From a virus, in the IMG/VR virus record IMGVR_UViG_3300030106_002199, positions 1 through 41,354 of that record: a stretch of DNA of 41,354 nucleotides; one strand, given 5' to 3'. The position numbers and the translations under genes were made by a program. The notes beneath the pieces were generated by a model. It searched no databases. It was not told the origin of the DNA and worked only from the letters and a program-made list of their open reading frames with translations. Shown here piece by piece: positions 9,690 through 37,620 of this stretch (position 1 is the first letter of the stretch; each line of letters opens with the position of its first letter).

Positions 9690-9699
9690 TTTTTACTCC

Positions 9700-10164
9700 T
9701 TATACGTTTAAGATATCTCTAGGATCTGTTATTACAGCCAAAACTTCATCATCATTTAATAATCGAGGTTCTGCACCTTGAATTTTAAATCTTGATCCTG
9801 CATATCGACCAAATAAAACCCAATCACCTTTTTTACACCAAGGACCATCAGGAAATTTATTTTCATCTTTATATGCATCTGGACCTAAACTAACAACATA
9901 ACCTGTATTGGTTGCTAAATTAGACCGTTCTATAGTTTCGTCTGCGTAAATAATACCGTTCTTTTCTTTCGGTATCGTATAAGGAAGGATTAAAATTCGC
10001 CAACCTGTAGGTTTTGGCAACCTTTCAAGGGCAGATTTATTATCTTCTTCCTTCGGCAACCCAAACGTAGATGGATCTAAAGGATTAGAAGTTGACTTCT
10101 CAGCCAAGCGTTCCTTTTCTATACCTCGTTTTACGTGGTCAGGAACGAAAAGTGTTTTAGACAT
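9700..10164 (-). CDS. GroES-like co-chaperonin domain protein
   Basis: 154 residues from ATG 10164 (MSKTLFVPDHVKRGIEKERL); an ATG three codons earlier is possible. Residues 50-154 have the Cpn10 pattern: LPKPTGWRILILPYTIPKEK, a mobile-loop-like stretch, NTGYVVSLGPDAYKD, CKKGDWVLFGRYAGSRFKI and DDEVLAVI. GroES family members cap the GroEL chamber; phage versions (T4 gp31) help fold the coat protein. Its place in the head module, just before the scaffold gene, fits that job. The 50-residue N-terminal extension is unlike bacterial GroES and could bind a phage partner. Confidence 0.75.
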   Translation of the reverse strand: MSKTLFVPDHVKRGIEKERLAEKSTSNPLDPSTFGLPKEEDNKSALERLPKPTGWRILILPYTIPKEKNGIIYADETIERSNLATNTGYVVSLGPDAYKDENKFPDGPWCKKGDWVLFGRYAGSRFKIQGAEPRLLNDDEVLAVITDPRDILNV

Positions 10165-12999: not shown

Positions 13000-14514
13000 T
13001 CAATAGTAAACGTATTGTCTTACACTATGTTCTAACGATTCATCTTCGTAATCAGATGGATGTCTCAAAAAACCTCCTTGACGAAATCGTAACATAGCTT
13101 GAGTAGTGGAATCGACCAAATCATCATGATCACCATTAGGGAACTCCGTAAGCTCCTCAACAAGCTCCTCTGCCCACCTTGTTTCTGGCACCCACACGAG
13201 TCCTGACTCGAATAAAGGTGCCACTGCATTAGTCCTAGCAATTTTATCCTGCCCTCTGTTTGGCGAATAGTTTTGTACAGGAATACCCATCGCCCTTAAT
13301 TCTTGTGTTAATGGCATTCCTGATGCTTTGGCTTCGATGATAACCGAATCTGGATCCCATTGTAAATAACTTTCTTGAGCAACTTCTTTTAATTCAGGAA
13401 AAGTGTACCTATCTCGGATAGAATCTAACAAAATTATATTCGCTTGTTCGGATTCATTTACCCTAAAAACACCCCAAGTTGTAATAGCACTATAATCTGC
13501 CCTTTCTGACTTTAAAAAAGCAGTATCATAGCTTTGAATTATAAAATCTACTAGTGGGGGGTCAGATTTTTCCCAAATATTAATCCATTCTTTCTTAATT
13601 ATTGCTCCATCGCCCCCTGTTGGTTCTTGCATCCACTGAGCAGACCATTTTGAGTGGGGTAAAGACGCTCGAATACCTTCTAATTCCTCAATTTTCCAAA
13701 ATTCTTCCCAAACTGGCTTGCCAGACGGCATAATTGCAGGAAATTCTATTAATTCCCACTTATCTGCCTTTAAATCTGACATTTGAGCCTTTAATAATTG
13801 ACCTGTTAAGTCCTTTTTTGACCATCTAGTCATTACTAAAATGATAACACCTCCTGGTTGGAGTCTCTGTCGAGGTCCAGAAGTGTACCATTCATATGCC
13901 ATTTCCATAGCTGTTTCGCTTAACGCATCTTGTTCCGAGTGAGGGTCGTCAATAATAAGGATATCAGCACCTCTACCAGTAATAGCACCTCCAACACCCG
14001 AAGCAAAATACTCTCCTCCTTCGGTTGTTTCCCATCTACCTGCGGCTTTTGAATCTGCTCGCAATGAAACATTTGGAAAAACCTCCTTATATTCTCTTGT
14101 ATCTACTAAATCTCTAACTTTTCTACCAAATCGTACAGCAAGTTCACCTGTATGTGTAGCTTGAATTATTTTTAAATCTGGTCGAATACCCAAGAGCCAT
14201 GATGGAAGCATATATGACGACATTTCTGACTTCGAATGTCGTGGAGCCATATTAATAATAACTCGTTTTAACTCCCCTCGTGCAATTTTATTAAATTGTT
14301 CGCACATTATCCTATGGTGTGCACCTTCGATAAAAGAACTCCACATCGTTCTAACAAAGGTTAAAAAATCTCCTCGGCATTCTTCTTGGAGCTTTCTTCG
14401 TTTTAATTCGTCTGTAAGTAAATTTAATTCTAATAATTCGTCTCGTTTTAATTCACCTAGATCGGTAGACGAAATATACTTTTCTACATCTTCTAAACTA
14501 TTAAGTTGCATCAA
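13000..14514 (-). CDS. terL: Terminase large subunit
   Basis: 504 residues, the ATPase-nuclease motor that pumps DNA through the portal. The ATPase P-loop variant is MAPRHSKSEM (residues 89-98), Walker B is DILIIDDPHSE (184-194), and the coupling motif is VMTRWSKKD (228-236). The RNase H-like nuclease has the expected acids: D330 in IIQSYDTAF, E393 in VIIEAKASG and D463-D467 in DHDDLVD. Terminase_6-like layout, full length. It sits next to the portal but about 3.4 kb from the small subunit gene at 17889. Confidence 0.92.
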   Translation of the reverse strand: MMQLNSLEDVEKYISSTDLGELKRDELLELNLLTDELKRRKLQEECRGDFLTFVRTMWSSFIEGAHHRIMCEQFNKIARGELKRVIINMAPRHSKSEMSSYMLPSWLLGIRPDLKIIQATHTGELAVRFGRKVRDLVDTREYKEVFPNVSLRADSKAAGRWETTEGGEYFASGVGGAITGRGADILIIDDPHSEQDALSETAMEMAYEWYTSGPRQRLQPGGVIILVMTRWSKKDLTGQLLKAQMSDLKADKWELIEFPAIMPSGKPVWEEFWKIEELEGIRASLPHSKWSAQWMQEPTGGDGAIIKKEWINIWEKSDPPLVDFIIQSYDTAFLKSERADYSAITTWGVFRVNESEQANIILLDSIRDRYTFPELKEVAQESYLQWDPDSVIIEAKASGMPLTQELRAMGIPVQNYSPNRGQDKIARTNAVAPLFESGLVWVPETRWAEELVEELTEFPNGDHDDLVDSTTQAMLRFRQGGFLRHPSDYEDESLEHSVRQYVYY

Positions 14515-15214
14515 GCGTCATCGCTTCTGGGGGTAATTCTTCATATTCCGTAAAAGCACCTTCTTCTACTTCATCTAAATTTAACTGAGGCGAAAATAAT
14601 AAAGCTAATGGGTAAGATAAAACTCCTGCACCTTTTGCAACAGCTTTTCCAGCAACTCCTAATCCTTCTAAAATCATACCTCCTGGATTTATTTTAAAAG
14701 ATTCAGCTATCGCTGTTTTTGCTCTTTCAGGTGCAAATTGAAATATTCCTTCTCGTAACATTCTAAAATATTGTTTATCGTTTATATTTCCTATAGCTCG
14801 TTCTAAATCTAAACTATCTACATATCGTAAACCATCTTTTAACATTTTTTCTGCTCCTTGAGGTCCACCGATCCTATTTTCTTTCATACCGTATGCATGA
14901 AACTTAAACGCATCTTTTGCAGCTTTAGAAAATTCATCAGGAGAAACTAACATCGTTTTAATACGACCTCCTCCTGTTTGCTTTATTGATTTTATTGAAG
15001 GCATGTTTTGTTGGTTAGCGAAATTTTTAGCCTTTTCTAAATCAGGTGTAAAAAATTTTCCTCGTGTCGTTTTACCTTCTTGTTTTTGAAATTCCATATC
15101 GCCAGAATATCCGAAATCAAATTTTGGATTCGGTAATTTACGAGGCTCACCACGATAAACACGGATCATGCCTTGTGGGTCTTTTTTAAATAAAGACATT
15201 AAACCTTGTTCCAT
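14501..15214 (-). CDS. Hypothetical virion protein with ADP-ribosyltransferase-like N-terminus
   Basis: 237 residues. Residues 17-70 read MIRVYRGEPRK ... TTRGKFFTPDLEKAKNFANQ. A vYRG start followed by FFTPD and a helix with xxAxxFA is the pattern of ART-fold proteins (first Arg of an R-S-E triad, then an S/T-containing beta strand). I do not see a convincing catalytic Glu, so activity is open. The C-terminal third is hydrophobic and Gly/Ala-rich (GLGVAGKAVAKGAGVLSYPL), as in ejected internal proteins. It overlaps TerL by 14 bases. Confidence 0.55.
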   Translation of the reverse strand: MEQGLMSLFKKDPQGMIRVYRGEPRKLPNPKFDFGYSGDMEFQKQEGKTTRGKFFTPDLEKAKNFANQQNMPSIKSIKQTGGGRIKTMLVSPDEFSKAAKDAFKFHAYGMKENRIGGPQGAEKMLKDGLRYVDSLDLERAIGNINDKQYFRMLREGIFQFAPERAKTAIAESFKINPGGMILEGLGVAGKAVAKGAGVLSYPLALLFSPQLNLDEVEEGAFTEYEELPPEAMTLDAT

Positions 15215-16416: not shown

Positions 16417-16770
16417 TTAGTTAACTTTAAAGTAATCGTTTAAAAGCCTTTTATGGTAGAAAGTCCAAATCCTTTCTACTGACTGGGTAGTAGATAACTT
16501 ACTAGTTTCAGGATTTTTTAAATCCTTAATAATTTCCCCTTTAGTAGCCGTACCACCAAGATTATCTAAACTATATAGAATAGCTTGGGCTTGGGCTGGT
16601 AAAGGATAAGCCTTTAAGTTTTCTAATACATTATCAGCTAAACTATAAGTTACGTTATTACTACCTTTAGGAGAAGGGGCAGGAATACCACATTTAGCAA
16701 TAGAAGACTTATTTAAGGTAGGAGTTACAGTAGAACCATTATCTACAATTTTAGTAATTTTCTTAGACAT
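16417..16770 (-). CDS. Winged-helix-like phage protein, paralogue A
   Basis: 117 residues. After a flexible N-terminus with KCGIPAPSPKG, residues 57-117 form a compact helix-helix-wing domain: AQAILYSLDNLGGTATKGEI, then SVERIWTFYHKRLLNDYFKV. The same domain with clear similarity is found at 17079-17393 and at the end of 30186-30584. This looks like a DNA-binding winged helix resembling replication or gene-regulation modules, but no known family was recognised. It has its own promoter-like leader (AGAAAGGAAAAT) and terminator, so it may be an early-expressed regulator. Confidence 0.65.
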   Translation of the reverse strand: MSKKITKIVDNGSTVTPTLNKSSIAKCGIPAPSPKGSNNVTYSLADNVLENLKAYPLPAQAQAILYSLDNLGGTATKGEIIKDLKNPETSKLSTTQSVERIWTFYHKRLLNDYFKVN

Positions 16771-17045
16771 AATATTTTCCTTTCTATCTTTCTAAGTTAT
16801 ATATTCTATTATTGTCATTTTCTTACTAAAGTAAAGTAAAAAGTTTATTATTTTTCAAACTATCGTTTAACATCGTTAACTAATTATTTTGGGCGAGTCA
16901 GTCAAACAGTCAAACAAACCAGTAGAGAGAATGGGTCATTATTATACCTGAGCCTTTGCTCGTGCTGTAATAAGTGATGATGAAAGGCTATGATGAAGGG
17001 CTATGATGATGAGCCCCAGTCAGTCAGTCAATCAGGTGCAATCGG
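16771..17045. other. Intergenic region with promoter-like leader and GTCA repeats
   Basis: No gene seen in this roughly 300-base gap. Near 16800-16850 the minus strand carries CTTTACTTTAGTAAG and AATAATAGAATATATAAC followed by the AGAAAGGA leader of the gene at 16770. At 16896-16920 and 17017-17036 are imperfect GTCA tetranucleotide repeats (gtcagtcaaacagtcaaac; cagtcagtcagtcaatcagg), and at 16976-17012 a doubled ggctatgatga motif. These repeats recur at 17521-17580 and in the nuclease gene. Confidence 0.5.
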
Positions 17046-17073
17046 CAAAAAAAGAGGGAGCCGAAGCTCCCTC
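17046..17073 (-). terminator. Rho-independent terminator
   Basis: The minus strand reads GAGGGAGC-TTCG-GCTCCCTC followed by seven T. It is a strong GC-rich stem with a stable UUCG loop, five bases after the stop of the 104-residue winged-helix gene. Confidence 0.9.
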
Positions 17074-17078
17074 AATCA

Positions 17079-17393
17079 TTAAGCATCGAGTTTAATATAC
17101 TCATCCTCGACCAATAACTTACGATAGAAATCATAAATTCTTTTTGGCGACTGAACAGTTTTTAAACCATTCGCGAGCAAGTTATCAACTACCTCGCCTT
17201 GCGTAGCAGAGCCACCAAGAGCTTCAATAGTATTTAGAATAATCATAGCCTGACCAGCTATCTTACGATTTTCAATAACCTTTGTTATCAAAGTAACTTT
17301 ACGATTATTAAAACCGTTTTTAGCAGGAGCAGGGATACCAGAGTTACCTACAGGAGATTTAGCGACAGGAGCTACCTTTTTAGATTTTTTCAT
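17079..17393 (-). CDS. Winged-helix-like phage protein, paralogue B
   Basis: 104 residues, paralogous to the gene at 16417. It shares GIPAPAKNG in the flexible basic N-terminus and the domain AMIILNTIEALGGSATQGEV ... SPKRIYDFYRKLLVEDEYIK. The N-terminus is Lys-rich (KKSKKVAPVAKSP), which fits DNA binding. It is a single-gene unit with its own promoter (17447) and strong terminator. Two tandem paralogues with independent control suggest related regulators acting at different times. Function unknown. Confidence 0.65.
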   Translation of the reverse strand: MKKSKKVAPVAKSPVGNSGIPAPAKNGFNNRKVTLITKVIENRKIAGQAMIILNTIEALGGSATQGEVVDNLLANGLKTVQSPKRIYDFYRKLLVEDEYIKLDA

Positions 17394-17446
17394 AACTTTC
17401 TACCTTTCTAATTTAATTAAGTTATACCAGTATCATATACCATACT

Positions 17447-17460
17447 CTTACTATAGTAAA
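17447..17460 (-). promoter_or_regulatory. Promoter motif TTTACTATAGTAAG
   Basis: The minus strand carries TTTACTATAGTAAG about 55 bases ahead of ATG 17393, matching the recurrent motif TTTACTATAATA seen ahead of 19307 and 24291. The TACTAT/TATAGT core fits a sigma70-like -10 box. The leader downstream contains TTAGAAAGGTAGAAAG, the shared ribosome-binding leader. Confidence 0.55.
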
Positions 17461-17520
17461 GTATTAATTACTGATTTTTAAATCTTTTTTATGACAAAAT
17501 GATTCCTGCTGCCTGGATCC

Positions 17521-17580
17521 GAGTCAATCAATCAATCGGTCATTCAGTCAATCAGACAGTCATTCGGTCAGTCAAACAAA
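17521..17580. repeat. GTCA/ATCA tetranucleotide repeat tract
   Basis: A run of imperfect 4-base units, agtcaatcaatcaatcggtc then attcagtcaatcagacagtc, partly overlapping the 3' end of the nuclease gene. Related tracts occur at 16896-16920, 17017-17036, 17664-17686 (actgactgactgactg) and 17790-17802 (ttgactgactg). Probable slippage-generated microsatellite cluster; whether it has a function is unknown. Confidence 0.7.
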
Positions 17581-17959
17581 GTTGCTTTAGCACGAGCTTC
17601 CAGTCAAACGGATGTTGTTGATGATGAATGGTGGGTGATGATGAACAGAGGGTACGATTTCTTAGACTGACTGACTGACTGCCTGGAACGCACCAAATTT
17701 GATGTTTTGAAGGGTCATGGATAAGAATCCAAGAGACACCTCCTCGAGTTGCACGACGCGTGTGCCATGCACATTGCTGGGCTGATAGATTGACTGACTG
17801 TATCGTTCCTATCTTGAGTTCAATCCAAAACTCGTTGCCCTGCCAACAGGCATTGACGTCAGGCACTCCTGTGCCAAGGGCTCCTGTTTCAATCCTTTGC
17901 CAGTGAACTTTGGGTAAGCTGTTCTTCAGCGTTTGATACAGGCTCTTTTCTGTCTTCAT
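17552..17959 (-). CDS. VRR-NUC-type PD-(D/E)xK nuclease
   Basis: 135 residues. The nuclease core is visible: RIETGALGTGVPDVNAC with E24 and D34, then FWIELKIG with E47 and K49, and a C-terminal helix plus GVSWILIHDP. VRR-NUC enzymes cut branched or structured DNA; in phages they may resolve replication or packaging intermediates. The start at 17959 overlaps TerS by 71 bases. GTCA-type repeats insert residues inside the gene (TIQSVNLSA and SQSVSLRN), and the last 30 codons run into a repeat tract, so the C-terminus may be degenerate. Confidence 0.75.
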   Translation of the reverse strand: MKTEKSLYQTLKNSLPKVHWQRIETGALGTGVPDVNACWQGNEFWIELKIGTIQSVNLSAQQCAWHTRRATRGGVSWILIHDPSKHQIWCVPGSQSVSLRNRTLCSSSPTIHHQQHPFDWKLVLKQLCLTDRMTV

Positions 17960-18467
17960 GCTCTACTACTTTCATATTGCTTCCATTTACAATTTGCTTT
18001 ATCCTTGAAACAAGATCCTCTGAACTCATGCTTTCCATCTTTGAAACCATGACCTCCTTCCGATCTATATACAACCCTGCTACCTTGCCCCTCGACACTT
18101 CAGCAGAGATCGCAGCAGCAATTTGCCCTGAATCCTTCGCTTCATCACGCAAATGGGAAAGTTCTGTTAGATGCGAGTCAACACTAACTTCTGCTCGTTG
18201 CTTCTGCTTTTCCAAAAGCTCAATAATAAAATTGCCAACCAGTGGATTCTTACGAAGCATTGCAGAACCTTGAACTTTTGAGCCAATCATGTCTTTCGTA
18301 AAGCCTGACTTTCTCGCTGCAGCTGCAGCAGACATTCCTTCAACATATAGTCTACAAAACTTTTTGTGCTTTGGTAGTAATGGTCGGTGTCTCTTACCAT
18401 CTGAGCAAACCCAGTAATTTCCACATTCTGATGGCGAAACTGGAGTGTACACAAGATCTCTCATCAA
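17889..18467 (-). CDS. terS: Terminase small subunit
   Basis: 192 residues. The N-terminal helix-turn-helix is KHKKFCRLYVEGMSAAAAAR then KSGFTKDMIGSKVQGSAMLR, the Terminase_2 pattern that recognises the packaging site. It is followed by a helical oligomerisation region (GNFIIELLEKQKQRAEVSVD; GQIAAAISAEVSRGKVAGLY) and an acidic tail that can contact TerL. It is separated from TerL by about 3.4 kb. Its leader contains the duplicated intergenic element and a promoter-like TTGTAT-N17-TAAGAT. GC content and codon choice look higher than in the neighbours. Confidence 0.8.
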   Translation of the reverse strand: MMRDLVYTPVSPSECGNYWVCSDGKRHRPLLPKHKKFCRLYVEGMSAAAAARKSGFTKDMIGSKVQGSAMLRKNPLVGNFIIELLEKQKQRAEVSVDSHLTELSHLRDEAKDSGQIAAAISAEVSRGKVAGLYIDRKEVMVSKMESMSSEDLVSRIKQIVNGSNMKVVEHEDRKEPVSNAEEQLTQSSLAKD

Positions 18468-18569
18468 TATGACCTTTTCTCACTTTCTTTGTTTTCTTTC
18501 CTTATATCTTACCAGACACAATAGTAATATACAATGGTTTTTTATTCTAAAAACAAAAAACTTTTCTCC

Positions 18570-18682
18570 CGACCCTTTATCTATGACTAACAGTTATGAT
18601 ATCTTGAAAACAAATATCATAGCCAAGAACCAAGAGCCACAGAGCATTATAGAAGATATTATGAGATTATGAGATTATGACG
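18570..18682 (-). promoter_or_regulatory. Duplicated intergenic element, copy A (upstream of terS)
   Basis: Three blocks match, in the same order, the region at 35761-35877. Block 1: CGTCATAATCTCATAATATC at 18655-18682, with an 8-base tandem duplication (AGATTATG in plus orientation). Block 2: TTTGTTTT then ATATCATAACTG at 18591-18614. Block 3: TCATAGATAAAGGGTCG at 18570-18586 and a following T run. Relative to terS transcription the element lies about 100-215 bases upstream of the ATG. It could be an operator pair, a replication origin or a packaging-site component. Confidence 0.55.
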
Positions 18683-18725: not shown

Positions 18726-18745
18726 TTGGGGCATTTCTGCCCCAA
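18726..18745 (-). terminator. Terminator-like hairpin
   Basis: A perfect 8-bp stem TTGGGGCA / TGCCCCAA with a 4-base loop, directly after the stop at 18751. It is not followed by a T tract on the minus strand, so it may work as an mRNA 3' end stabiliser or a weak terminator. Confidence 0.5.
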
Positions 18746-18750: not shown

Positions 18751-19023
18751 TTAAGCGAAACAAGAAAAGCTACAAAAGAAGCCTTGACGAAGCTCCTCGT
18801 CTTGAACAAGAGCCCAGCCATCAATAAAATGGTTTAGCTCACCTGTATCAAGATTAAGGGCGAATGCTTCATAGCCTTCTGGGAAAGAATGATATTTTAT
18901 ATGACCAACGTGATCAGGACCAGAGCCTGCTTCAATAGTTACATCATCCATTTCGCAAAGCATATTGAATGTCCTGATAAATATATTAGTCATTCCCTCA
19001 CGGTGTGCATAAAGTGCATACAT
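18751..19023 (-). CDS. Small hypothetical protein
   Basis: 90 residues, unrecognised. Mixed alpha/beta with NIFIRTFNMLCEMDDVTIEA, HVGHIKYHSFPEGYEAFALN and a Cys/Phe-rich end (GFFCSFSCFA). The start shares bases with the stop of the 94-residue gene (TAATG). It is the last gene of a two-gene early unit driven from 19337. No function can be stated. Confidence 0.55.
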   Translation of the reverse strand: MYALYAHREGMTNIFIRTFNMLCEMDDVTIEAGSGPDHVGHIKYHSFPEGYEAFALNLDTGELNHFIDGWALVQDEELRQGFFCSFSCFA

Positions 19024-19307
19024 TATAAATTCTCCTCTTTCTTTAACTGCTCAATTAACTCTTCATCAATGTAATCTGAGTCTATATCCTCTGGGTGAGG
19101 AATACGAGAATGAGGGGCTTCTTTTCGTAAAGGATTACCCCACTTATCATACTTACCCCAAAATGGGTTAACGTGCCAAACATCATTACCTGTAGCGATA
19201 TAAGCTCTATCAGGGTTTTGGGAACCAATCTCTCTAGCCTCAGCTCGATCCCAATCTTGGGGTGATGCGTAAATAAAATCACGATCTTCTTGTTCTTGTA
19301 TGTACAT
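19023..19307 (-). CDS. Small acidic hypothetical protein
   Basis: 94 residues, acidic, Trp/Asp/Pro-rich (SPQDWDRAEAREIGSQNPDR; NDVWHVNPFWGKYDKWGNPL). The C-terminal helix is DEELIEQLKKEENL. No family recognised. It is first in its transcription unit, with the AGAAAGGAAGA leader and a clear promoter motif. Small acidic early proteins of phages often inhibit host enzymes, but this is only a general possibility. Confidence 0.55.
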   Translation of the reverse strand: MYIQEQEDRDFIYASPQDWDRAEAREIGSQNPDRAYIATGNDVWHVNPFWGKYDKWGNPLRKEAPHSRIPHPEDIDSDYIDEELIEQLKKEENL

Positions 19308-19336
19308 TTTTCTTCCTTTCTAAAATTAATCTTACC

Positions 19337-19350
19337 TATATTATAGTAAA
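19337..19350 (-). promoter_or_regulatory. Promoter motif TTTACTATAATATA
   Basis: The minus strand gives TTTACTATAATATA about 30 bases before ATG 19307; the same 14 bases occur at 24473-24486. TATAAT is a consensus -10 box. Upstream, GTAAAAACAGTATAATG and AGTAATCGT resemble the region upstream of 20514 (GTAAAAGCATTATTTTG, AGTAATCGT), suggesting duplicated promoters. Confidence 0.65.
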
Positions 19351-19392
19351 GCAAAGCGACGATTACTATTACATTATACTGTTTTTACTCGT

Positions 19393-19421
19393 AAAAAAAC
19401 CCCACTATTTTCATAGTGGGG
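19393..19421 (-). terminator. Rho-independent terminator
   Basis: The minus strand has CCCCACTAT-GAAA-ATAGTGGGG followed by seven T. This ends the DUF932 transcript ahead of the next promoter. Confidence 0.88.
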
Positions 19422-19451
19422 CGAAAGGAACTGTTATGTCGTAAATAAAAT

Positions 19452-19481
19452 GACTATGTCCAGAATCAACTGGACATAGTC
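19452..19481 (-). terminator. Hairpin directly after the DUF932 gene
   Basis: A perfect 12-bp inverted repeat GACTATGTCCAG / CTGGACATAGTC with a 6-base loop, 8 bases past the stop, followed on the minus strand by ATTTTATTTA. With the next hairpin at 19393 it forms a tandem terminator or a 3' stabilising structure. Confidence 0.65.
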
Positions 19482-19488
19482 GACCAAG

Positions 19489-20514
19489 CTATGCGTTTGC
19501 ATATTCGATAGCTTTGTCTAATGCTTTGGCTTTCCTGTTTGCTCCAACGCCAAACCATGATGAATGAAGAGCATTACCAGGAGCTGACTGCTTTTTCTGA
19601 TGATCTTCGTGATAAGTCACACCATTCAAAGCACCCCACCAAGTTCCCTTGGCTGACTTCATCGTAGCACCTGGACTTAGATCGATGTTTTGAAGGACCT
19701 GAGTCGCTGTAGCATTAAACTGCTCTTGCATAACGAATTCATCATCAGTAAGTGCTTTGGCTTTATCAACAAGTACGGAAGGTTGATACAACTCAGCAAT
19801 ATAATTAAGAACTGATTCTTGTTTGTATTGACGAGATGCAAGGAACTCGGACTTTTCTTTGAAGTCGGTTATCGCTTGACTACTGAGACCAAGTGCTTCT
19901 TCTGCTGCAGCTCGGACATCTTCATCGAACTCTTTGACGTGGGGCATACGCAGTGCAGTACCCTCGCCTCGCAATGCCATAGTCAAGGTATTGTTACAAA
20001 CAACACGGATCGGTGTAAACTTAATCGTCATTGCTTTACCTGCTTCGTGGGGCTGATTGATGAGGAGGTAGCCTTTAACTTCATCGCCACCAGCTAATTC
20101 GAAATCATCTTTGAGTTTAGCTAAACCCCAAATCTCTTTACCATCTCGTAAAGAACCAGCAGTCTCCATTTTCATATGACCTGCTTGAGTAAACTTAACG
20201 AAGAAGTCGAAGATATCTTTGTTTTGGATAGGTATGTATTTTTCGCCACACTGCGATAAAACTGAATTATCGCTATCCCTAACAATAAAGTGATGTCCAC
20301 TAGCTTGGAGTAAACCGACATCACCAACGATCTGACCATTCTCGGTTGACCACTCAGGCTTATCTAATGTATAAGCTGGTCGTTTACTAACTGTCCAGTC
20401 AAGCTGTGCAGCTTTTTGCATTTGAGCTGGAGTAAGGGTATCAGCAACTTCTGTTCCTAACCCATGCCAAGGCTTTGCATTTGCATAAGCCATTGTTTCG
20501 ATATTATGTGCCAT
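19489..20514 (-). CDS. DUF932 phage/plasmid-like protein
   Basis: 341 residues, the usual family size. MAHNIETMAYANAKPWHGLG is the hallmark N-terminus, followed by WTVSKRPAYTLD, FFVKFTQAGHMKMETAGSLR, GKEIWGLAKL and RVVCNNTLTMALR, then a helical C-terminus. DUF932 proteins are widespread in phages and plasmids (TIGR03299); their biochemical activity is not established. The gene is a monocistronic early unit with its own promoter region and two hairpins behind it, so its dosage is probably tuned separately. Its base composition is more GC-rich than the small genes around it. Confidence 0.85.
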   Translation of the reverse strand: MAHNIETMAYANAKPWHGLGTEVADTLTPAQMQKAAQLDWTVSKRPAYTLDKPEWSTENGQIVGDVGLLQASGHHFIVRDSDNSVLSQCGEKYIPIQNKDIFDFFVKFTQAGHMKMETAGSLRDGKEIWGLAKLKDDFELAGGDEVKGYLLINQPHEAGKAMTIKFTPIRVVCNNTLTMALRGEGTALRMPHVKEFDEDVRAAAEEALGLSSQAITDFKEKSEFLASRQYKQESVLNYIAELYQPSVLVDKAKALTDDEFVMQEQFNATATQVLQNIDLSPGATMKSAKGTWWGALNGVTYHEDHQKKQSAPGNALHSSWFGVGANRKAKALDKAIEYANA

Positions 20515-20692
20515 TATTCTTCCTTTCTAAATTAATGGTTAATATTTAACTTACTACTATAATAAGAGATATAAAAAACGATTACTATAACAAAATAATG
20601 CTTTTACTGATTCAAAAAATAACGTATCGTTAAGTATCGTTTATTTCTCCCCTGTAAATGAGTGTAGAATCAAGGTTCCTCCATACTTGGTT
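20515..20692 (-). promoter_or_regulatory. Leader and promoter region of the DUF932 gene
   Basis: No gene. On the minus strand it has AGTAATCGT, TTATTATAGTAGTAAG and TTAAATATTAACC, ending with TTAGAAAGGAAGAATA before ATG 20514. The block GTAAAAnCAnTATnnTGT then AGTAATCGT is repeated upstream of the 19307 gene, suggesting copied promoters. Confidence 0.5.
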
Positions 20693-20944
20693 CTACATCT
20701 TTTCTTTATGAAACTCTTTTAAATATTCAAGAGCCCATTGTCTCGTTGGTGCTTTTCCTTGTTTAGTAAAACCATCTAAGCTCCAACCCCATTCGGTAGC
20801 GAGAGTACCAACATAATAAATGTCTCCAATCTTTTTGTTTTGAAAGAAGACTTCCCAATCAGAAACACCAGACCATTTCGCAAACTCTCTTTCTTTTTCG
20901 GTATTATATCCTGTGCTTGGTCTCTTTAATAAATACTCCATCAT
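20693..20944 (-). CDS. Small hypothetical protein, Trp-rich
   Basis: 83 residues. WSGVSDWEVFFQNKKIGDIY followed by YVGTLATEWGWSLDGFTKQG and a C-terminal helix (TRQWALEYLKEFHKEK). Looks like a small alpha/beta single-domain protein, possibly acting with the next gene, which it overlaps (TGATG). Unknown function. It is the last gene of the 24033-20693 run of short coupled genes. Confidence 0.55.
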   Translation of the reverse strand: MMEYLLKRPSTGYNTEKEREFAKWSGVSDWEVFFQNKKIGDIYYVGTLATEWGWSLDGFTKQGKAPTRQWALEYLKEFHKEKM

Positions 20945-21147
20945 ACTTCTCGTGGCTCAGGTGAATCAACAATATTTCCCAAATTCATACCTGTTTGTCT
21001 TATATCAAGCCATTGTAATACAAGTTTATTATTATGGATCTTTTGAAGACGAGCAAGATCTGGGATGATAACACACATAGGATCATGCCAATATTCTTCA
21101 GTTTGATCTGGGTAAGTGACTTTTAATAAAAATTTTGGTTTACCCAT
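20941..21147 (-). CDS. Small hypothetical protein
   Basis: 68 residues, with KFLLKVTYPDQTEEYWHDPM and LARLQKIHNNKLVLQWLDIR. Probably beta-alpha. Coupled by overlaps at both ends (ATG in the preceding stop; TGATG with the next gene). No similarity recognised. Confidence 0.55.
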   Translation of the reverse strand: MGKPKFLLKVTYPDQTEEYWHDPMCVIIPDLARLQKIHNNKLVLQWLDIRQTGMNLGNIVDSPEPREV

Positions 21148-21307
21148 TTTGTTTCCCCTCTAATGTTTTTAATTTTTGTTGAGCTAAAGATAAAAGTTCA
21201 TATGCCTCTCTTAATTTTAATTGTACATCACTAAGTTTGTTTTTAGTATCAACTAACTGAGCAGTCCTCTCTATGTACTTAGCCTCATAGTTTATTTCTT
21301 CACTCAT
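21140..21307 (-). CDS. 55-residue coiled-coil protein
   Basis: Starts ATG 21307, overlapping the previous stop, and ends in TAAACCC over the next start. The whole chain is a predicted coiled coil (ERTAQLVDTKNKLSDVQLKL; LLSLAQQKLKTLEGK) with heptad-spaced Leu. Small coiled-coil phage proteins often pair with another polypeptide; the partner is not evident. Confidence 0.6.
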   Translation of the reverse strand: MSEEINYEAKYIERTAQLVDTKNKLSDVQLKLREAYELLSLAQQKLKTLEGKQNG

Positions 21308-21485
21308 CTAATTCATCCTCCACTGATTTTTTCCATAATACAACAATATGAGCAATATTATCTTTTACTTTATCATAATGCTCAAATTGTTTTTTCAAAT
21401 CACTCTTATCTACATAGCCCCAATTATCATGACCAAGTATTTTTTGGCATGCATCATCAAGAGCATCTGAATCATATCTACTCAT
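21300..21485 (-). CDS. Small helical hypothetical protein
   Basis: 61 residues from ATG 21485 (MSRYDSDALDDACQKILGHD), preferred because ATGA overlaps the preceding stop. The remainder is helix-rich (KSDLKKQFEHYDKVKDNIAH). Function unknown. Confidence 0.5.
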   Translation of the reverse strand: MSRYDSDALDDACQKILGHDNWGYVDKSDLKKQFEHYDKVKDNIAHIVVLWKKSVEDELDE

Positions 21486-21691
21486 AAGCCTACCTCCTTC
21501 TTCCATTTTTCGACTTGTTTTAATAAAGAGACGGCACATTCATACCGACCCTCACAAATACCCTCAGTACCGTCAGTAAGAATTTCTTCACCATCGACTA
21601 CAGGGGCTTGATGGCTAATCTCATGTTTTAACCATCGTTCTATCTTTGCAATTACTTGATTAGATACATCATCTGGATTACCTATCATCAC
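21482..21691 (-). CDS. Small hypothetical protein
   Basis: 69 residues, with NQVIAKIERWLKHEISHQAP and YECAVSLLKQVEKWKKEVGL forming two helices around an acidic Gly-rich loop. It could be a small helical regulator. Overlaps both neighbours by 4 bases. Unrecognised. Confidence 0.55.
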   Translation of the reverse strand: MMIGNPDDVSNQVIAKIERWLKHEISHQAPVVDGEEILTDGTEGICEGRYECAVSLLKQVEKWKKEVGL

Positions 21692-21921
21692 TGTCCCTCC
21701 TTTGGGTATCTGAAATAATTAAAAGTTTCGTCCAAGACATGATGAATAACGTAAGTATAGTTAGCATCTTGCCAAGCAGAAACAACTTGAGACTCTGCAT
21801 CCATATAATCTATATGATCATCAGGTATCTCTCCAGGATGCTCTGGGTGAGCGATATCTTCTGGGTGCCAATATTCGACATAACCGAAACCATGACCTTC
21901 CTCTAATAGTTTCCATGCCAT
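21688..21921 (-). CDS. Small acidic His-rich hypothetical protein
   Basis: 77 residues. VEYWHPEDIAHPEHPGEIPD is rich in His, Pro and acidic residues, and the rest (YTYVIHHVLDETFNYFRYP) is aromatic. His clustering could bind a metal, but no known motif is complete. It overlaps the next gene by 4 bases. Confidence 0.5.
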   Translation of the reverse strand: MAWKLLEEGHGFGYVEYWHPEDIAHPEHPGEIPDDHIDYMDAESQVVSAWQDANYTYVIHHVLDETFNYFRYPKEGQ

Positions 21922-21923
21922 GC

Positions 21924-22115
21924 TTATGCTCCTTTCGTATTTATATTAACTAATTCCGAAAGGTTAGTCACAAGAACATAATTAGATTTATGCATAGGAA
22001 CAACAGTATGAACTTTTTGTTTAGCTTCTTTATCGCCACAAGATAAACAGGTATCATACCCAAGAGAAGCCCTGCGAGGGGGCGAAATAACATCATCGCA
22101 TACTTTACAATACAT
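21924..22115 (-). CDS. Small zinc-finger-like protein
   Basis: 63 residues starting at MYCKVCDDVISPPRRASLGY; the longer in-frame extension crosses the promoter/leader, so it is rejected. CKVC and CLSC supply two CxxC pairs, followed by GDKEAKQKVHTVVPMHKSNY, a pattern I know from small phage zinc ribbons. AAAGGATATT precedes the ATG. Likely a small metal-binding regulator or adaptor; target unknown. Confidence 0.65.
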   Translation of the reverse strand: MYCKVCDDVISPPRRASLGYDTCLSCGDKEAKQKVHTVVPMHKSNYVLVTNLSELVNINTKGA

Positions 22116-22170
22116 TAGCAATATCCTTTCTACTTTCTTTATTTTTATTATACTAAAACAAAAAGGCAAT

Positions 22171-22395
22171 TTATATAGGAAAACTATGCTTTTTATCGTT
22201 GAACTTGTAGCTAAGTGTATCTTCCATTTCTTCAATATTGATTGAATAAAAGTTCTTGTTTTTTAATGGAGCAGAGAAGAACTCTAATCTCTTTTCTGCT
22301 TCTTCTCGTGTTCGATACGAACCAATGAATGATGATCCGTGGTCCCCACGTCTTTTAATACGAATACGATAATAACCTGTTGTTGAAAGTATCAT
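22171..22395 (-). CDS. Small basic hypothetical protein
   Basis: 74 residues. STTGYYRIRIKRRGDHGSSF and GSYRTREEAEKRLEFFSAPL suggest an AP2-like or beta-alpha fold, though too short to be sure. The rest is a mixed helix. It shares 4 bases with the upstream gene. Function unknown. Confidence 0.55.
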   Translation of the reverse strand: MILSTTGYYRIRIKRRGDHGSSFIGSYRTREEAEKRLEFFSAPLKNKNFYSINIEEMEDTLSYKFNDKKHSFPI

Positions 22396-22781
22396 GCTAC
22401 ATTCTCCTCTACATGTTTTAAAACTGCGTCGGTAAGTACGGCTAAAGAACTACCACGACCTGCTTTCATATATGATGCTTCTAAAGCAGTATGAAGATTA
22501 AAACGTCGTGCCATATCTTCTACAATTCTATGAGACGAAACTCCTTCGAGTTCTTTAATAATTGAACCATCGTCTGCATAAATATTTCCTTTATGAGAGC
22601 CATCAGATTTATAAGTACGAATGAAACTCTTTACATACTTTGGTGGAAAGCCTAACTCAGTAAATGTTTTTATATCCCAAATAGTATGAGCATCGTATAA
22701 GATCTCTGCTAAATCTCTTTGATTAGCCTCTACTAATACTTTCTTAATTCGCTTAGTTGTTAAATCCATTGGCATCCTCAT
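22392..22781 (-). CDS. Hypothetical early protein
   Basis: 129 residues from ATG 22781, chosen for the strong GAGGAGG site 6 bases upstream; an ATG further upstream lies inside the MazG-like gene. Segments MDLTTKRIKKVLVEANQRDL and SSHRIVEDMARRFNLHTALE are helical; the C-terminus reads SYMKAGRGSSLAVLTDAVLK. No motif recognised. Overlaps the MazG-like gene by 29 bases. Confidence 0.6.
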   Translation of the reverse strand: MRMPMDLTTKRIKKVLVEANQRDLAEILYDAHTIWDIKTFTELGFPPKYVKSFIRTYKSDGSHKGNIYADDGSIIKELEGVSSHRIVEDMARRFNLHTALEASYMKAGRGSSLAVLTDAVLKHVEENVA

Positions 22782-23127
22782 TTTGATCCTCCTCTTTAAT
22801 ATATAATCCGTTAACCAATTTTCCTTTTCTATCTTTAATTTCTTCGTAAGCATAATCCATACAAGAAACTAAAGACATATTATTTCGCATACAAATATTA
22901 ACCATAATAACTAACATATCACCAATAGCATCTGCTATCAAAGCCTTCGGGACTTCTGGTGTATCGTAGGAGTCTGCTTGAATAACTGCTTGGGATAACT
23001 CGCCTAGTTCTTCTACAAGTTTTAGAACTTGATCTTTACTTGTACTACCCTCGATAAGGTTACGATCTTCATGCCACTTCCTTATCAAGCCCTCGAGAGT
23101 ATAATAATCATACGGCACTTTCATCAT
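22753..23127 (-). CDS. MazG-like nucleotide pyrophosphohydrolase
   Basis: 124 residues, the size of single-domain MazG. KLVEELGELSQAVIQ holds the first acidic motif (E39, E40, E43) and ALIADAIGDMLVIMVNI the second (D66, D70), which together bind Mg2+ and the NTP phosphates. Such enzymes hydrolyse (d)NTPs to monophosphates; in phages they may lower host (p)ppGpp or clear unwanted nucleotides such as unmodified dNTPs. The last is relevant because the genome also encodes a base-hypermodification cassette. It is coupled to the gene upstream (overlap at 23108). Confidence 0.8.
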   Translation of the reverse strand: MMKVPYDYYTLEGLIRKWHEDRNLIEGSTSKDQVLKLVEELGELSQAVIQADSYDTPEVPKALIADAIGDMLVIMVNICMRNNMSLVSCMDYAYEEIKDRKGKLVNGLYIKEEDQNEDANGFNN

Positions 23128-23389
23128 CTACCTCCAGTATATTGACTAGCTTGAGTTCATATTGAATCATACTATGGTTTTCGTGAGAGTAAACTTCTAA
23201 AGTGTTTTGGTGTAAAATATATGTTTCATGTTCTGTTTCTAACATTCTTGCACCATCTGATTCAACACCTTGAAAAGTTTGTAGATCACTTGCTGATAGA
23301 CCTCTCCAATCTTGTTGGATAATCTGTTCTAAAAGGTTACTAGCGATACCTGTTGAACGACCATAAGATTTTTGTTTAAAATGTTTCAT
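23108..23389 (-). CDS. Hypothetical protein, paralogue of 23728-24033
   Basis: 93 residues. LEQIIQQDWRGLSASDLQTF ... ESDGARMLETEHETYILHQN is clearly related to the C-terminal part of the gene at 23728 (LELIVSFDWRSLNDDEITLY; LDGARALETSDGTRLFIINN). Here the N-terminus is basic rather than zinc-binding. The shared core looks like a small alpha/beta domain of unknown role. The pair probably arose by duplication. Confidence 0.6.
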   Translation of the reverse strand: MKHFKQKSYGRSTGIASNLLEQIIQQDWRGLSASDLQTFQGVESDGARMLETEHETYILHQNTLEVYSHENHSMIQYELKLVNILEVDDESAV

Positions 23390-23592
23390 GTAGAATCACC
23401 TCCTCGATAAGGAAAAAGAGTGTCAGCATGACACTCTATTATATCCCAACTAAGCCCTACACAAGCATCATGTTTTTCCAAACAACGTCGCAATACTTGT
23501 CGAGCTTGATCTTTAGTTAGTAGTGGACATTGCTCCATAACATCTTCTGTGCACCATTCTAATGTAATAGTGTCTTGATCTACTTGCTTCAT
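23386..23592 (-). CDS. Small conserved phage protein
   Basis: 68 residues from ATG 23592 (MKQVDQDTITLEWCTEDVME), chosen because ATG overlaps the preceding stop (TAATG). KDQARQVLRRCLEKHDACVG and LSWDIIECHADTLFP follow the pattern of small phage proteins found in many genomes. Mostly helical. Function unknown. Confidence 0.6.
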   Translation of the reverse strand: MKQVDQDTITLEWCTEDVMEQCPLLTKDQARQVLRRCLEKHDACVGLSWDIIECHADTLFPYRGGDST

Positions 23593-23738
23593 TAGTCTAC
23601 CCAATCCATTCTTATTATTTCGTGTTTATTATCTATTACTTTTCTAATCTGCTCTTGACTATCAGCTTCGATCATAAACTCTACTAATTTGTTGAGATCT
23701 TTATTAATAGCTACTTTAACATAATATCTATTTTCCAT
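23592..23738 (-). CDS. 48-residue hypothetical protein
   Basis: Short frame from ATG 23738 to TAA 23592, linked by TAATG to the next gene and overlapping the 101-residue gene at its 5' end. MENRYYVKVAINKDLNKLVE forms a beta-alpha start; EFMIEADSQEQIRKVIDNKH is helical. Size and coupling are like its neighbours. Function unknown. Confidence 0.55.
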   Translation of the reverse strand: MENRYYVKVAINKDLNKLVEFMIEADSQEQIRKVIDNKHEIIRMDWVD

Positions 23739-24033
23739 TAGAACCCTCCTGATTAGTCACATGAAGCAAGACCCATTTACCTTGAGATTTAGTAGTACCT
23801 AACTCAAAAGAATACAAGGTCATATTATTAATAATAAATAAACGAGTGCCATCTGATGTTTCTAAAGCCCTCGCTCCATCTAGGGGAACTTCACCAAACA
23901 CAGGCTTATAAAGAGTAATCTCATCATCGTTTAAACTTCGCCAATCAAAGCTAACAATTAATTCTAAAATTTTAAAAGGGGTCATATCAAACTGGTGTAT
24001 GCCATGACCACATCTTGGACAAGTAATCGCCAT
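23728..24033 (-). CDS. Zinc-finger-headed protein, paralogue of 23108-23389
   Basis: 101 residues. CPRCGHGIH near residue 5 is a CxxC knuckle with a trailing His; the rest, LELIVSFDWRSLNDDEITLY ... LDGARALETSDGTRLFIINN, is related to the gene at 23108. Only one Cys pair is present, so zinc binding may need a dimer. It starts after the TTAGAAAGGAAGA leader, so it heads its own unit. The paralogue has lost the metal knuckle, suggesting divergence after duplication. Confidence 0.6.
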   Translation of the reverse strand: MAITCPRCGHGIHQFDMTPFKILELIVSFDWRSLNDDEITLYKPVFGEVPLDGARALETSDGTRLFIINNMTLYSFELGTTKSQGKWVLLHVTNQEGSNGK

Positions 24034-24045
24034 CTTTCTTCCTTT

Positions 24046-24291
24046 CTAATATTTCAATGGGTTTTCTTCTACAGGTGCAGAGTTTTGATAAAACTCTTTT
24101 GCATGTTTAAAGTCGTTTGTACGACCTGGAAAATTAGGCTCATACCTTGATATAGGTTCACCTAGCTTATGCTGAACATATAAGGTATCATACTTAATCC
24201 ACCACGCATAAACATCTTTTACATTAAAGTCTAATAAATAACATGAAGTTACTTCATACTTAGCCTCTAACTCATAACACATATCTGCCAT
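24046..24291 (-). CDS. Small hypothetical protein behind a structured leader
   Basis: 81 residues, with MADMCYELEAKYEVTSCYLL, DVYAWWIKYDTLYVQHKLGE and a C-terminal FYQNSAPVEENPLKY. Mixed alpha/beta; no motif. Its interest lies in the leader: about 160 bases of predicted strong RNA structure (24311-24468) between a clear promoter and the AGAAAGGAAGA ribosome site. That organisation is consistent with a riboswitch-like or protein-bound control element. Confidence 0.55.
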   Translation of the reverse strand: MADMCYELEAKYEVTSCYLLDFNVKDVYAWWIKYDTLYVQHKLGEPISRYEPNFPGRTNDFKHAKEFYQNSAPVEENPLKY

Positions 24292-24310
24292 ATTCTTCCT
24301 TTCTAAAAGT

Positions 24311-24468
24311 GTACTAGAAGTAGGACATTACCGAGTGTCTTCCGTCGAAGTCAAAGAGGGTCTGATATTCCGATAGCAACTCTGTCTAACCTCATGCTAT
24401 CGCCCCACTTCTAGTACGTTGCAACATTTAACAAATAACATGAGACTGGAGGTAGCCACCTCATGTTA
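24311..24468 (-). ncRNA. Structured 5' leader / candidate ncRNA or riboswitch-like element
   Basis: Read on the minus strand, the RNA starts with a 9-bp hairpin TAACATGAG / CTCATGTTA (24436-24468). A closed domain follows. Its outer 11-bp helix is GTACTAGAAGT / ACTTCTAGTAC (24407-24417 with 24311-24321). It encloses an 8-bp helix CGATAGCA / TGCTATCG (24395-24402 with 24371-24378) with a 16-nt loop, and a small CTTC / GAAG hairpin. The loop GAGG can pair with CCTC outside it (possible pseudoknot). It lies directly after the promoter at 24473. No known riboswitch consensus recognised. All helices were found by eye. Confidence 0.5.
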
Positions 24469-24472
24469 CTTT

Positions 24473-24486
24473 TATATTATAGTAAA
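24473..24486 (-). promoter_or_regulatory. Promoter motif TTTACTATAATATA
   Basis: Identical to the 14-mer at 19337. TATAAT as -10 would start transcription close to the first base of the TAACATGAG hairpin, so the RNA begins with structure. Confidence 0.65.
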
Positions 24487-24521
24487 AATATTAAATGAAT
24501 AAAAACTAAAAATAATGTTTC

Positions 24522-24830
24522 TTATGCCGACTCATCGCCATTATTATCGTAAGGACTTTGAGTAGTTGGAAACTCACTATGAATATTTTCAGTTATTTCT
24601 TGAGTATCTTTATACATAGGAAATAAATTATACATTAATAATCGCATATCTTCAATATTTGATACTTCTTTCATTGCTCCAGGAACTTTTTCTAGTTCTT
24701 TTATCGCAATATAAAGGGCTTGACCAATTATATATTGACCTCGCATACTTGCAAATAACTTCCTTGCTACTTGGATCTTCTGTTCTTTAGACATCCAATT
24801 TCTTCTTTCTATTTTTTCTTGTTCACTCAT
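24522..24830 (-). CDS. Small helical hypothetical protein
   Basis: 102 residues from ATG 24830 (MSEQEKIERRNWMSKEQKIQ), chosen over an ATG six codons earlier because ATGAGTGA overlaps the previous stop. Mostly helical: KEQKIQVARKLFASMRGQYI, ALYIAIKELEKVPGAMKEVS, MRLLMYNLFPMYKDTQEITE. I recall similar short early proteins in marine phages. Function unknown. Confidence 0.6.
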   Translation of the reverse strand: MSEQEKIERRNWMSKEQKIQVARKLFASMRGQYIIGQALYIAIKELEKVPGAMKEVSNIEDMRLLMYNLFPMYKDTQEITENIHSEFPTTQSPYDNNGDESA

Positions 24831-25092
24831 CGCTTTCTCCCTTTCCATGTATGATTTCCCAAGTGTTTTTATAATCTTCTTCTGCCGTGTCGATGGATAA
24901 CATTCCGTGTGTAATTAGATACTCGGAATAAAAGTCGAACGTCTCATCGGCAGTAGCACCCTCTAGCTCAACTCCTTGACCTATAAGGTTTGCAGCGATT
25001 AGATCTGCTTCGTTCTTAGCACCTAACTCTCGTAGCTTTCGCCATGCGACAACAGCCATGATGATAGGCATCGTTATAGTTTTTTCGGACAT
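24823..25092 (-). CDS. Small helical hypothetical protein
   Basis: 89 residues. ITMPIIMAVVAWRKLRELGA is helical but not a clear membrane segment; ADETFDFYSEYLITHGMLSI follows, with an acidic end. It follows a promoter-like AT-rich leader with TTATTATAATAAA and AAAGGAG. Not recognised. Confidence 0.55.
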   Translation of the reverse strand: MSEKTITMPIIMAVVAWRKLRELGAKNEADLIAANLIGQGVELEGATADETFDFYSEYLITHGMLSIDTAEEDYKNTWEIIHGKGESDE

Positions 25093-25154
25093 TTAATACT
25101 CCTTTTTATTTATTATAATAAAAATAAAAATGGAATTATATAAGAATAAAATGT

Positions 25155-30176: not shown

Positions 30177-30185
30177 TGCTTTCTC

Positions 30186-33947: not shown

Positions 33948-33949
33948 GA

Positions 33950-35646: not shown

Positions 35647-35947
35647 TCTACTTTCTCCTAACTTTTACTATACTATACTTTATTAATATAATAATAAACC
35701 TTTATTTTATGCAACATAGTCATGTTTAAAAGTTTTTATTATTTTATTTTTAAAAAAGCTCGTCATAATCTCATAATATCATAAGAATGTAGTTAAGCCT
35801 TTGTTTTTACTATATAACTGCTCTATGAGATTTTATTTTACATTATCATAGATAATGGGTCGTAAGGAACTTTTTTCATAACTTTTATATATCTCACTAG
35901 ATATTTATATAGTATATTAATTTTTAGAAAGAAGAAGGAGACATATT
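35647..35947. promoter_or_regulatory. Divergent promoter region
   Basis: No gene. Leftward: AGTATAGTATAGTAAAAG before the GGAGAAAG leader of 35646. Rightward: TTTATATAGTATATTAATTTTTAGAAAGAAG (in parts: TATATAGTATATTA, then TTTTTAGAAAGAAGAAGGAG) before TTG 35948. The central portion carries the duplicated element copy B (35761-35877). The adjacent XRE regulator at 37390 is the natural candidate to bind here. Confidence 0.65.
35761..35877 (+). promoter_or_regulatory. Duplicated intergenic element, copy B
   Basis: Plus-strand blocks CGTCATAATCTCATAATATC (35761-35780), TTTGTTTTTACTATATAACTG (35800-35820, in parts TTTGTTTT and ATATAACTG), and TCATAGATAATGGGTCG (35846-35862) with a following T run. 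They match copy A upstream of terS in order and orientation relative to the downstream gene. Copy B lacks the 8-base tandem duplication in block 1. Confidence 0.55.
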
Positions 35948-37402
35948 TTGTTTACGTTCAAAACTAGACCGTATAAACATCAGCTTAATGCATTAAAAGA
36001 ATCTTGTAATAAAGATGAATATGCATTGCTTATGGATATGGGAACTGGTAAATCGAAAGTCTTAATAGACACTATAGCTTATCTATATGACACTGGAAAA
36101 ATTAATTCAGCGTTTATATTAGCACCAAAAGGTGTTTATAAAAACTGGGTAGGGCAAGAAATACCTAATCATCTTCCTAACCATATAGAACATAAGATGG
36201 CATATTGGTCTTCACCATTAACAGAAAAAGTAAAAAAAGAAATAGAAGCAATATGGAAACCAGATTTTGATTTACAAATATTTGTAATGAACATTGAAGC
36301 TCTGTCTACTAAGAAAGGTTTAGAGATAGCCAAAAGATTTATCTTTAATCACAAAAATGGAATACATAACGAAGGCACATTATTAGCAATAGATGAATCT
36401 ACTGTAATAAAAAACCATAGGGCAAAAAGAACTAAGAATGCAATAGAGTTAGGAAAGTTAGCGAAGTATAAAAGAATATTAACAGGTTCACCAATAACTA
36501 AATCACCTTTAGATCTATATTCGCAGTTTGCTTTTTTAAGTGAAGAACTATTAGGATTTAGATCGTATTATTCTTTTTGTGCAAGATTTGCAGATATGAT
36601 AAAAAGATCTGCAGGATCTCATCAGTATAATCAAATATTAGGTTTTCGTAATTTAGACGAATTAACAGAACTAATAAAGCCTCATTCTTTTAGAGTAACA
36701 AAAGAACAATGTTTGGATTTACCAGAAAAAATTTATACTCGTAGAGTTATAGAACTAACCCCTGAGCAAAAAAAGATTTATCAGGATATGAAGAAGAATG
36801 CAGTTACCCAATTAGATAATATGGAACAAGTTACTGCAAACGCAGTTATAACACAACTATTAAGACTTCATCAAATAAGTTGTGGTTTTGTAAATACAGA
36901 CGATGGCTCTTCTGTTGAAATAAATAATAATCGACTATCTGAATTAATAAGTATATTAGAAGAAGTAAATGGAAAAGCTCTAATATGGGCGAATTATAGA
37001 CACGATATACAAAAGATAGAACAAGAGCTTAGTCGTATTTATGGTGAAAACTCTGTAAGGAGTTATTATGGTGATACTCCAGGAGAAGAAAGACAACAGA
37101 TTGTAGAACAGTTTCAAACTGATGATACTTTACGTTTCTTCGTAGGACAACCAAGAACTGGAGGTTTTGGTCTTACTCTAACGGCTGCTAATACAGTAAT
37201 TTATTATAGTAATAGTTATGATCTTGAGATAAGATTGCAATCAGAAGATAGAGCACATAGAATAAGTCAAACATCGAAAGTAACATATATTGATTTAGTT
37301 GCAGAAAAAACTGTAGACGAAATTATAGTAAAATCGTTAAGACAAAAAATAAACTTAGCTACCCAAGTTTTAGGAGAGGACTGGAAAAAATGGCTGATAT
37401 AA
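35948..37402 (+). CDS. SNF2-family DNA helicase/translocase
   Basis: 484 residues from TTG 35948 (GAAGGAG 8 bases upstream). Motif I is MDMGTGKSKV, motif II LAIDESTVIKN, motif III RILTGSPIT, and motif V/VI are FGLTLTAANTVIYYS and EDRAHRISQ, a superfamily 2 SNF2/SWI2 ATPase. The length is that of the core only. Such phage enzymes move on duplex DNA, remodel protein-DNA complexes or aid replication and recombination. It leads the only plus-strand operon. Confidence 0.85.
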   Translation: MFTFKTRPYKHQLNALKESCNKDEYALLMDMGTGKSKVLIDTIAYLYDTGKINSAFILAPKGVYKNWVGQEIPNHLPNHIEHKMAYWSSPLTEKVKKEIEAIWKPDFDLQIFVMNIEALSTKKGLEIAKRFIFNHKNGIHNEGTLLAIDESTVIKNHRAKRTKNAIELGKLAKYKRILTGSPITKSPLDLYSQFAFLSEELLGFRSYYSFCARFADMIKRSAGSHQYNQILGFRNLDELTELIKPHSFRVTKEQCLDLPEKIYTRRVIELTPEQKKIYQDMKKNAVTQLDNMEQVTANAVITQLLRLHQISCGFVNTDDGSSVEINNNRLSELISILEEVNGKALIWANYRHDIQKIEQELSRIYGENSVRSYYGDTPGEERQQIVEQFQTDDTLRFFVGQPRTGGFGLTLTAANTVIYYSNSYDLEIRLQSEDRAHRISQTSKVTYIDLVAEKTVDEIIVKSLRQKINLATQVLGEDWKKWLI

Positions 37403-37620
37403 TTGAAAATTTTAAAGATATAAGAAAATATAAAAGCTATACTCAAAAAGAATTAGCTGATGGTACAGGTGTTAGTGAGATAGCTATATACACTTGGGAA
37501 TCTAAAATGAGGCAACCTACCCTGAGTAACTTTAATAAAGTTTTAAATAAAATGGGATTTGAATTACATATTAGACCAATAGAACGAGTATCATATGATG
37601 AGGTAAGCAATGGATATTAA
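37390..37620 (+). CDS. XRE-type helix-turn-helix regulator
   Basis: 76 residues. KSYTQKELADGTGVSEIAIY then TWESKMRQPTLSNFNKVLNK is a Cro/CI-type HTH with recognition helix SEIAIYTWE. The short C-terminus has no dimerisation domain. It overlaps the SNF2 gene by 13 bases and the lysozyme by 11. Probable targets are its own divergent region and possibly the similar element upstream of terS. Confidence 0.8.
   Translation: MADIIENFKDIRKYKSYTQKELADGTGVSEIAIYTWESKMRQPTLSNFNKVLNKMGFELHIRPIERVSYDEVSNGY

Follow-up and report, generated by a model that had tools for sequence, protein, structure and literature searches.

In phage SPP1, two homologous origins, which lie 12-13 kb apart and comprise direct repeats and an AT-rich region, are bound by one protein, and one of the two origin sites is thought to stall replication forks and trigger concatemer synthesis (PMC6316719, PMC3485210). 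Here we describe a paired element that resembles this oriL/oriR pair, which is bound by G38P; unlike in SPP1, the copies are inverted and flank the replication module, an inverted repeat and a GTCG core are added, and no known initiator is present. The ori1 and crr sites of phage P4 are, like our element, two separated cis sites with common short repeats, but the repeats, the initiator and the layout differ. Operators of the MetJ/Arc type are built of head-to-tail 8-bp boxes, as the element is; unlike them, it also has the inverted repeat and a distinct core, and no such regulator, or other ribbon-helix-helix protein, was found among the phage proteins searched (part of the ORFs).

The window, by which we mean the whole 41,354-nucleotide stretch of DNA analyzed here, corresponds to positions 1-41354 of a virus record of 51,421 bases and has a mean AT content of about 0.645. 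It derives from a tailed phage, as judged from genes for TerL, TerS, portal, a head protein, PolA, a TOTE-type primase, UvrD- and SNF2-type helicases and a GTA-type holin. Its closest relatives in GenBank are Phage DSL-LC04, 023Pt_psg01 and the pelagiphages HTVC027P and HTVC023P (TerL identity, 55-63%; helicase, 46-56%). Genes point leftward in the early/replication module (18751-35646) and also below 18.5 kb, where terS and the structural genes lie; helicase, XRE protein and lysozyme genes point rightward from 35948.

Two inverted copies of a composite element of about 110 bases, with their cores outermost, were identified in the window: A (18680-18570, minus strand) before the terminase small subunit gene and B (35763-35862, plus strand) before the SNF2 helicase/HTH operon. 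The first gene after A is terS (17889..18467, minus strand; phrog_51 E 3.5e-16, Terminase_2 E 1.8e-8), whose start codon is probably the ATG at 18464, and the first gene to the right of B in this genome encodes the SNF2-type helicase (35948..37402, plus strand; phrog_62 E 5e-122, SNF2-rel_dom E 5e-20). In both copies, an array of three tandem 8-bp boxes (TCATAATN) is followed by the inverted repeat TATGA...TCATA and then by a core (TAANNNGTCG). In A, all on the minus strand, the boxes TCATAATC TCATAATC TCATAATA (18657..18680), kept in 34 distinct terS-side copies, are followed by a place-specific middle block (18623..18656; TGTAATGCTCTGTGGCTCTTGGTTCTTGG in relatives), which is kept among terS-side copies and only loosely similar to the B side, by the inverted repeat TATGATATTTG..CAAGATATCATA (18594..18621) and by the core TCATAGATAAAGGGTCG (18570..18586). 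The corresponding plus-strand parts of B are the boxes TCATAATC TCATAATA TCATAAGA (35763..35786), a middle block (GTTAAGCCTTTGTTTTTACTATATAACTG, 35787..35823) kept among helicase-side copies, the inverted repeat TATGAGATTT..ATTATCATA (35824..35850) and the core TCATAGATAATGGGTCG (35846..35862), which co-varies with that of A. When A was compared with B by BLAST within their own 51,421-base record, they matched at E=3.5e-8 (80% over 51 bases). Within the window, TCATAATNTCATA and TCATAGATAAWGGGTCG are each restricted to A and B; allowing up to one mismatch, the former has 4 sites against 0.73 expected (0/100 shuffles reach 4), and allowing up to three, the latter has 2 against 0.07 expected. 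No Rfam family was found at A or B in a scan of the window.

The original prediction of a three-block element in two copies was thus correct as to both copies and the order of their parts, and CGTCATAATCTCATAAT and TCATAGATAA(A/T)GGGTCG lie on the predicted strands at the predicted places. Its middle block, "TTTGTTTT...ATAACTG", had been misaligned and is not homologous as drawn: the distance from the first box to TTTGTTTT is 66 nt in A, placing the motif within the inverted repeat, and 37 nt in B, placing it ahead of the inverted repeat. The true common second block is the inverted repeat itself (A 18621-18594, B 35824-35850). Copy B ends at 35862, not at 35877, and A is not set apart simply by an added 8-base duplication, as each copy has three 8-bp boxes, the third box of B being degenerate (TCATAAGA).

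Past the core of A, an AT-rich tract (18512..18569, minus strand), a candidate unwinding region, leads to an extended -10-like site, TGGTAAGAT (18506..18514, minus strand), which lies ahead of terS and is kept in relatives; no sigma-70 -35 hexamer or sigma-70 site was detected ahead of terS by a consensus scan. A GC-rich stem-loop (TTGGGGCAGAAATGCCCCAA; 18726..18745, minus strand) separates the last early gene from A. It is terminator-like, has no T-run and was not called by a consensus terminator scan; in relatives, it is kept ahead of A in the form GTTGGGGGC..GCCCCCAA.

To gather relatives, we searched with terS and the helicase, and obtained dozens of marine IMG/VR contigs with the element both ahead of terS and on the side of the helicase; the blocks are therefore kept at both places, and not absent from relatives. 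They reach into coding sequence only at the B core, in loci where an opposing HD gene ends there. Aligned TerS and XRE queries extended the reach to further clades. A scan with the composite pattern returned 76 stretches, or 78 with the two window copies; all were classified, and in 78/78 the first recognised gene is terS or helicase. There are 66 distinct IMG/VR versions, and their two places bracket the early module: 34 precede terS, 32 are on the helicase side and 0 lie elsewhere, counts in which absence weighs little since the contigs are fragments, and in which clades are not independent. Element length tracks place (100/102 at the helicase; 110/111/122 at terS). Among the matches listed, a looser scan gave more versions of the same two kinds, chance matches and an unrelated set of freshwater phages. 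In four records of the latter whose context was read (L261 5201-5474, L276 5515-5788, L286 and L292), about 10 TGTCATAA boxes in both orientations occupy one intergenic region near the terminase genes. Host-genome copies were also considered: none of 28 matches in genome_contigs has the third box and the core, and we read them as chance.

Spacing within the element is strict. In every clearly parsed copy, TATGA begins 59 nt past the first box at A and 61 nt past it at B, and inter-block spacings differ between A and B in a fixed way. The core follows the consensus TAANNNG(T/C)CG. Lengths from TATGA to the core end are 35, 39-41, 41-43, 50-52 or 62-63 nt, leaving out two terS copies parsed at a second TATGA; they form classes of about 40, 51 and 62 nt, roughly one helical turn apart, with the 35-nt class as the exception. 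These steps resemble helical turns, a likeness based on two or three independent length changes. The AT content of the 50 nt past the core is 0.72-0.73 (mean 0.72 on the terS side) versus about 0.645 for the window.

The two cores also vary together. Among 12 genomes that carry A and B, the two copies agree at 39/48 positions, counting the variable bases of the core and the base after it, versus 19.1 with shuffled partners (P ~1e-4, by a shuffle that ignores phylogeny). Core variants include AGGGTCG, GACGTCG/CACGTCG and GCCGTCG, and ATGGTCG in records in which one copy was seen. We take this to mean that lineage changes are shared by the cores of A and B, as would be the case if both were read by one factor; this suggests that one protein assembles on A and B.

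Sister phages provide a comparison. HTVC023P, HTVC027P and 023Pt_psg01 are like the window phage in having related helicase, primase, PolA and TerL proteins and a similar module order. The TCATAAT element was absent from the parts read of HTVC027P, HTVC023P, 023Pt_psg01, DSL-LC04 and the L060/L061 group. The first three have iterons at or near the early/late junction, as in the window, but of unrelated sequence and in one clear cluster per genome. In 023Pt_psg01, 7/13 TGGCACA copies lie within 13575-13784 (210 bp); in HTVC023P (L139), 5/7 CTAGGAAA copies lie within 11680-11764 (~90 bp) with an 8-bp period; and in HTVC027P both TGTTACAATG copies and two of TGTTTCAC lie within 14782-14864. The HTVC023P iterons end near GACGTC, before terS. 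The inversion of terS in 023Pt_psg01 and HTVC027P leaves their iteron clusters at the junction. At the B place, L060/L061 carry a weaker group of CCTATTAG, with no group of this type before terS in L061, and the 33 kb of DSL-LC04 that were read include a 36-nt inverted repeat near terS.

The explanation we favor, with a probability of roughly 45%, is that A and B form a paired origin-type, initiator-binding site, like oriL and oriR of SPP1, that flanks the replication module. A phage (or host) protein would bind the 8-bp TCATAATN boxes and the TATGA/TCATA inverted repeat, and the bound complex would position a second factor at the GTCG core beside the AT-rich stretch. One or both copies could then start phage DNA replication, or stall and switch it as in SPP1. 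A single protein acting on both copies, melting of the AT-rich flank and replication as the outcome are our inferences. Repeats, inverted repeat, core, AT-rich flank, fixed spacing, two copies and iteron turnover are together easier to reconcile with an initiator-binding origin than with a simple operator. Each genome has two sites with shared direct repeats, as a pair of origins should. Of the three ideas in the original prediction (paired origin, XRE operator, packaging element), this one appears the best supported, by the iterons, the AT-rich flank, the concerted evolution of the copies and the SPP1 precedent. The conserved promoter-like site after A counts against it. GC skew follows gene strand and does not switch at either copy. 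No recognised initiator protein was found, and the families of the two candidate DNA-binding proteins described below are not known initiators. As sister phages have one clear cluster, the wider group does not depend on a second copy. A tentative extension, which we consider possible though doubtful, is that abundant marine phages have here a lineage-specific two-origin system: at a fixed genome position, iterons and the fast-evolving protein that binds them would be replaced over time, and the gain of a second copy would have bracketed the replication module. With exact coordinates, spacing rules and natural variants, the paired element makes binding, replication mapping and co-evolution directly testable, and it gives a starting point for finding the binding protein, for which winged-helix and XRE proteins are candidates.

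The chief rival is that A and B are sites for a phage transcription regulator, XRE or winged-helix, that switches the late and helicase operons together. It draws its weight from the conserved extended -10-like site, lacking a -35, that follows A, from the XRE and winged-helix genes that accompany the element, and from the position of B between divergent operons in the window genome. The candidate XRE/HTH_3 protein (76 aa; 37390..37620, plus strand; HTH_3 E 1.6e-7) has profile matches to HigA/HipB chains, and small XRE dimers of this kind bind inverted repeats. A putative winged-helix protein (17079..17393, minus strand) is the other candidate; it and its paralogues at 16417-16770 and 30186-30584 are mutually related by alignment, and none of the three has a match in PHROGs. 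The AlphaFold2 model of the 17079..17393 protein (pLDDT 78) has the order H-E-H-H-E and no significant PDB match. XRE and winged-helix genes accompany the element in the four genomes compared that carry it and were found in 0/6 relatives that lack it, some of them partial, a co-occurrence that is confounded by shared ancestry; one element-bearing genome, G002, has no match to the 30186 winged-helix paralogue.

What lowers this reading is an opposing gene at B. At 23 distinct B loci, an ORF of 180-203 aa runs toward B and has its stop codon inside the element, so that the B core lies in the 3' end of the gene. In L053 this ORF (9305-9916), between B and the helicase, encodes a YfbR-like HD protein; the other 22 loci of this type were recognised by position, several also by a similar N-terminus. 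No long opposing gene is present in 25 distinct loci of B length (L167, L169 and L170 being terS copies of B length). The gene splits B from the helicase/XRE operon, which argues that B is not simply the promoter or operator of the helicase operon, and in the new helicase promoter region, the gap between HD gene and helicase, boxes are mostly absent. An XRE operator, as originally proposed, is possible given the co-occurring XRE gene, and B does adjoin the promoter region of the helicase/XRE operon in the window, but at these 23 loci it is cut off from it. At A, the terS -10-like site follows the core at a variable distance (23, 56-60, 66-67 or 70 nt), and we discarded the idea that this spacing reflects activator geometry. 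Since B stays intact with or without a helicase promoter beside it, and the distance at A varies over 23-70 nt, it is the complex that is constrained, not the distance to a promoter. The element also exceeds a usual operator in length and order. On balance, we regard a regulator as rather unlikely.

A promoter for a phage RNA polymerase was considered as well, given the T7-type-like GGGTCG after an AT stretch, and rejected: B points into the end of the opposing gene at 23 loci, and no single-subunit phage RNA polymerase was recognised, the large ORFs examined belonging to portal, virion, tail or replication families. Such a polymerase could in principle still be encoded, two long ORFs (789 and 810 aa) having no informative family match.

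Instead of the origin pair, a host or phage architectural factor might use the two sites to loop or insulate the 17-kb early domain, for segregation, as a domain boundary or in early/late topology. Two inverted copies that exactly flank the early module with fixed spacing would suit such a role, and a host factor could explain why TGTCATAA-like boxes cluster in unrelated phages, but the single clear cluster in sister phages means that an A-B loop is not general, and we find this account improbable. Still less probable is a pac site recognised by TerS. Copy A adjoins terS in the window group, and the pac site of SPP1 overlaps the terS promoter (PMC6316719). However, B never adjoins terS, the sister iterons remain at the junction where terS is inverted or lies elsewhere, and contigs run through both sites, so the packaging initiation element of the original prediction now looks weak. 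A cos end was rejected, many contigs crossing A or B and several both, and clustering of contig ends was dropped as a terminus signal, as long contigs break within a variable region distant from both copies. The idea that A and B delimit a 17-kb module that moves or inverts, as inverted copies with outermost cores might suggest, is close to refuted, with 0/66 elements swapped (A-type at the helicase or B-type at terS) and a similar module in sister phages that lack the element.

Some further features of these genomes were noted. The interval between terS and terL contains short strand-asymmetric repeats (window 16896-17580; L134 16499-17746; L137 15418-17853; L136) that differ in sequence in each relative (AGTCAGTCAAAC, GCTTGAAGCTTG, GCGAGCGAGC and CCTTGGTCCGTGGGC). 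In the window, an Rfam match to Mu-gpT-DE RNA (6571-6624, 66.7 bits) adjoins the head protein gene, and 39055-39753 has a strong match in PHROGs to a family labelled ferredoxin (E 8e-112). A thymidylate synthase-like protein gene adjoins one for a 5-hmdU DNA kinase-type domain protein (27446-29358), and this pair suggests that thymine in the phage DNA is modified.
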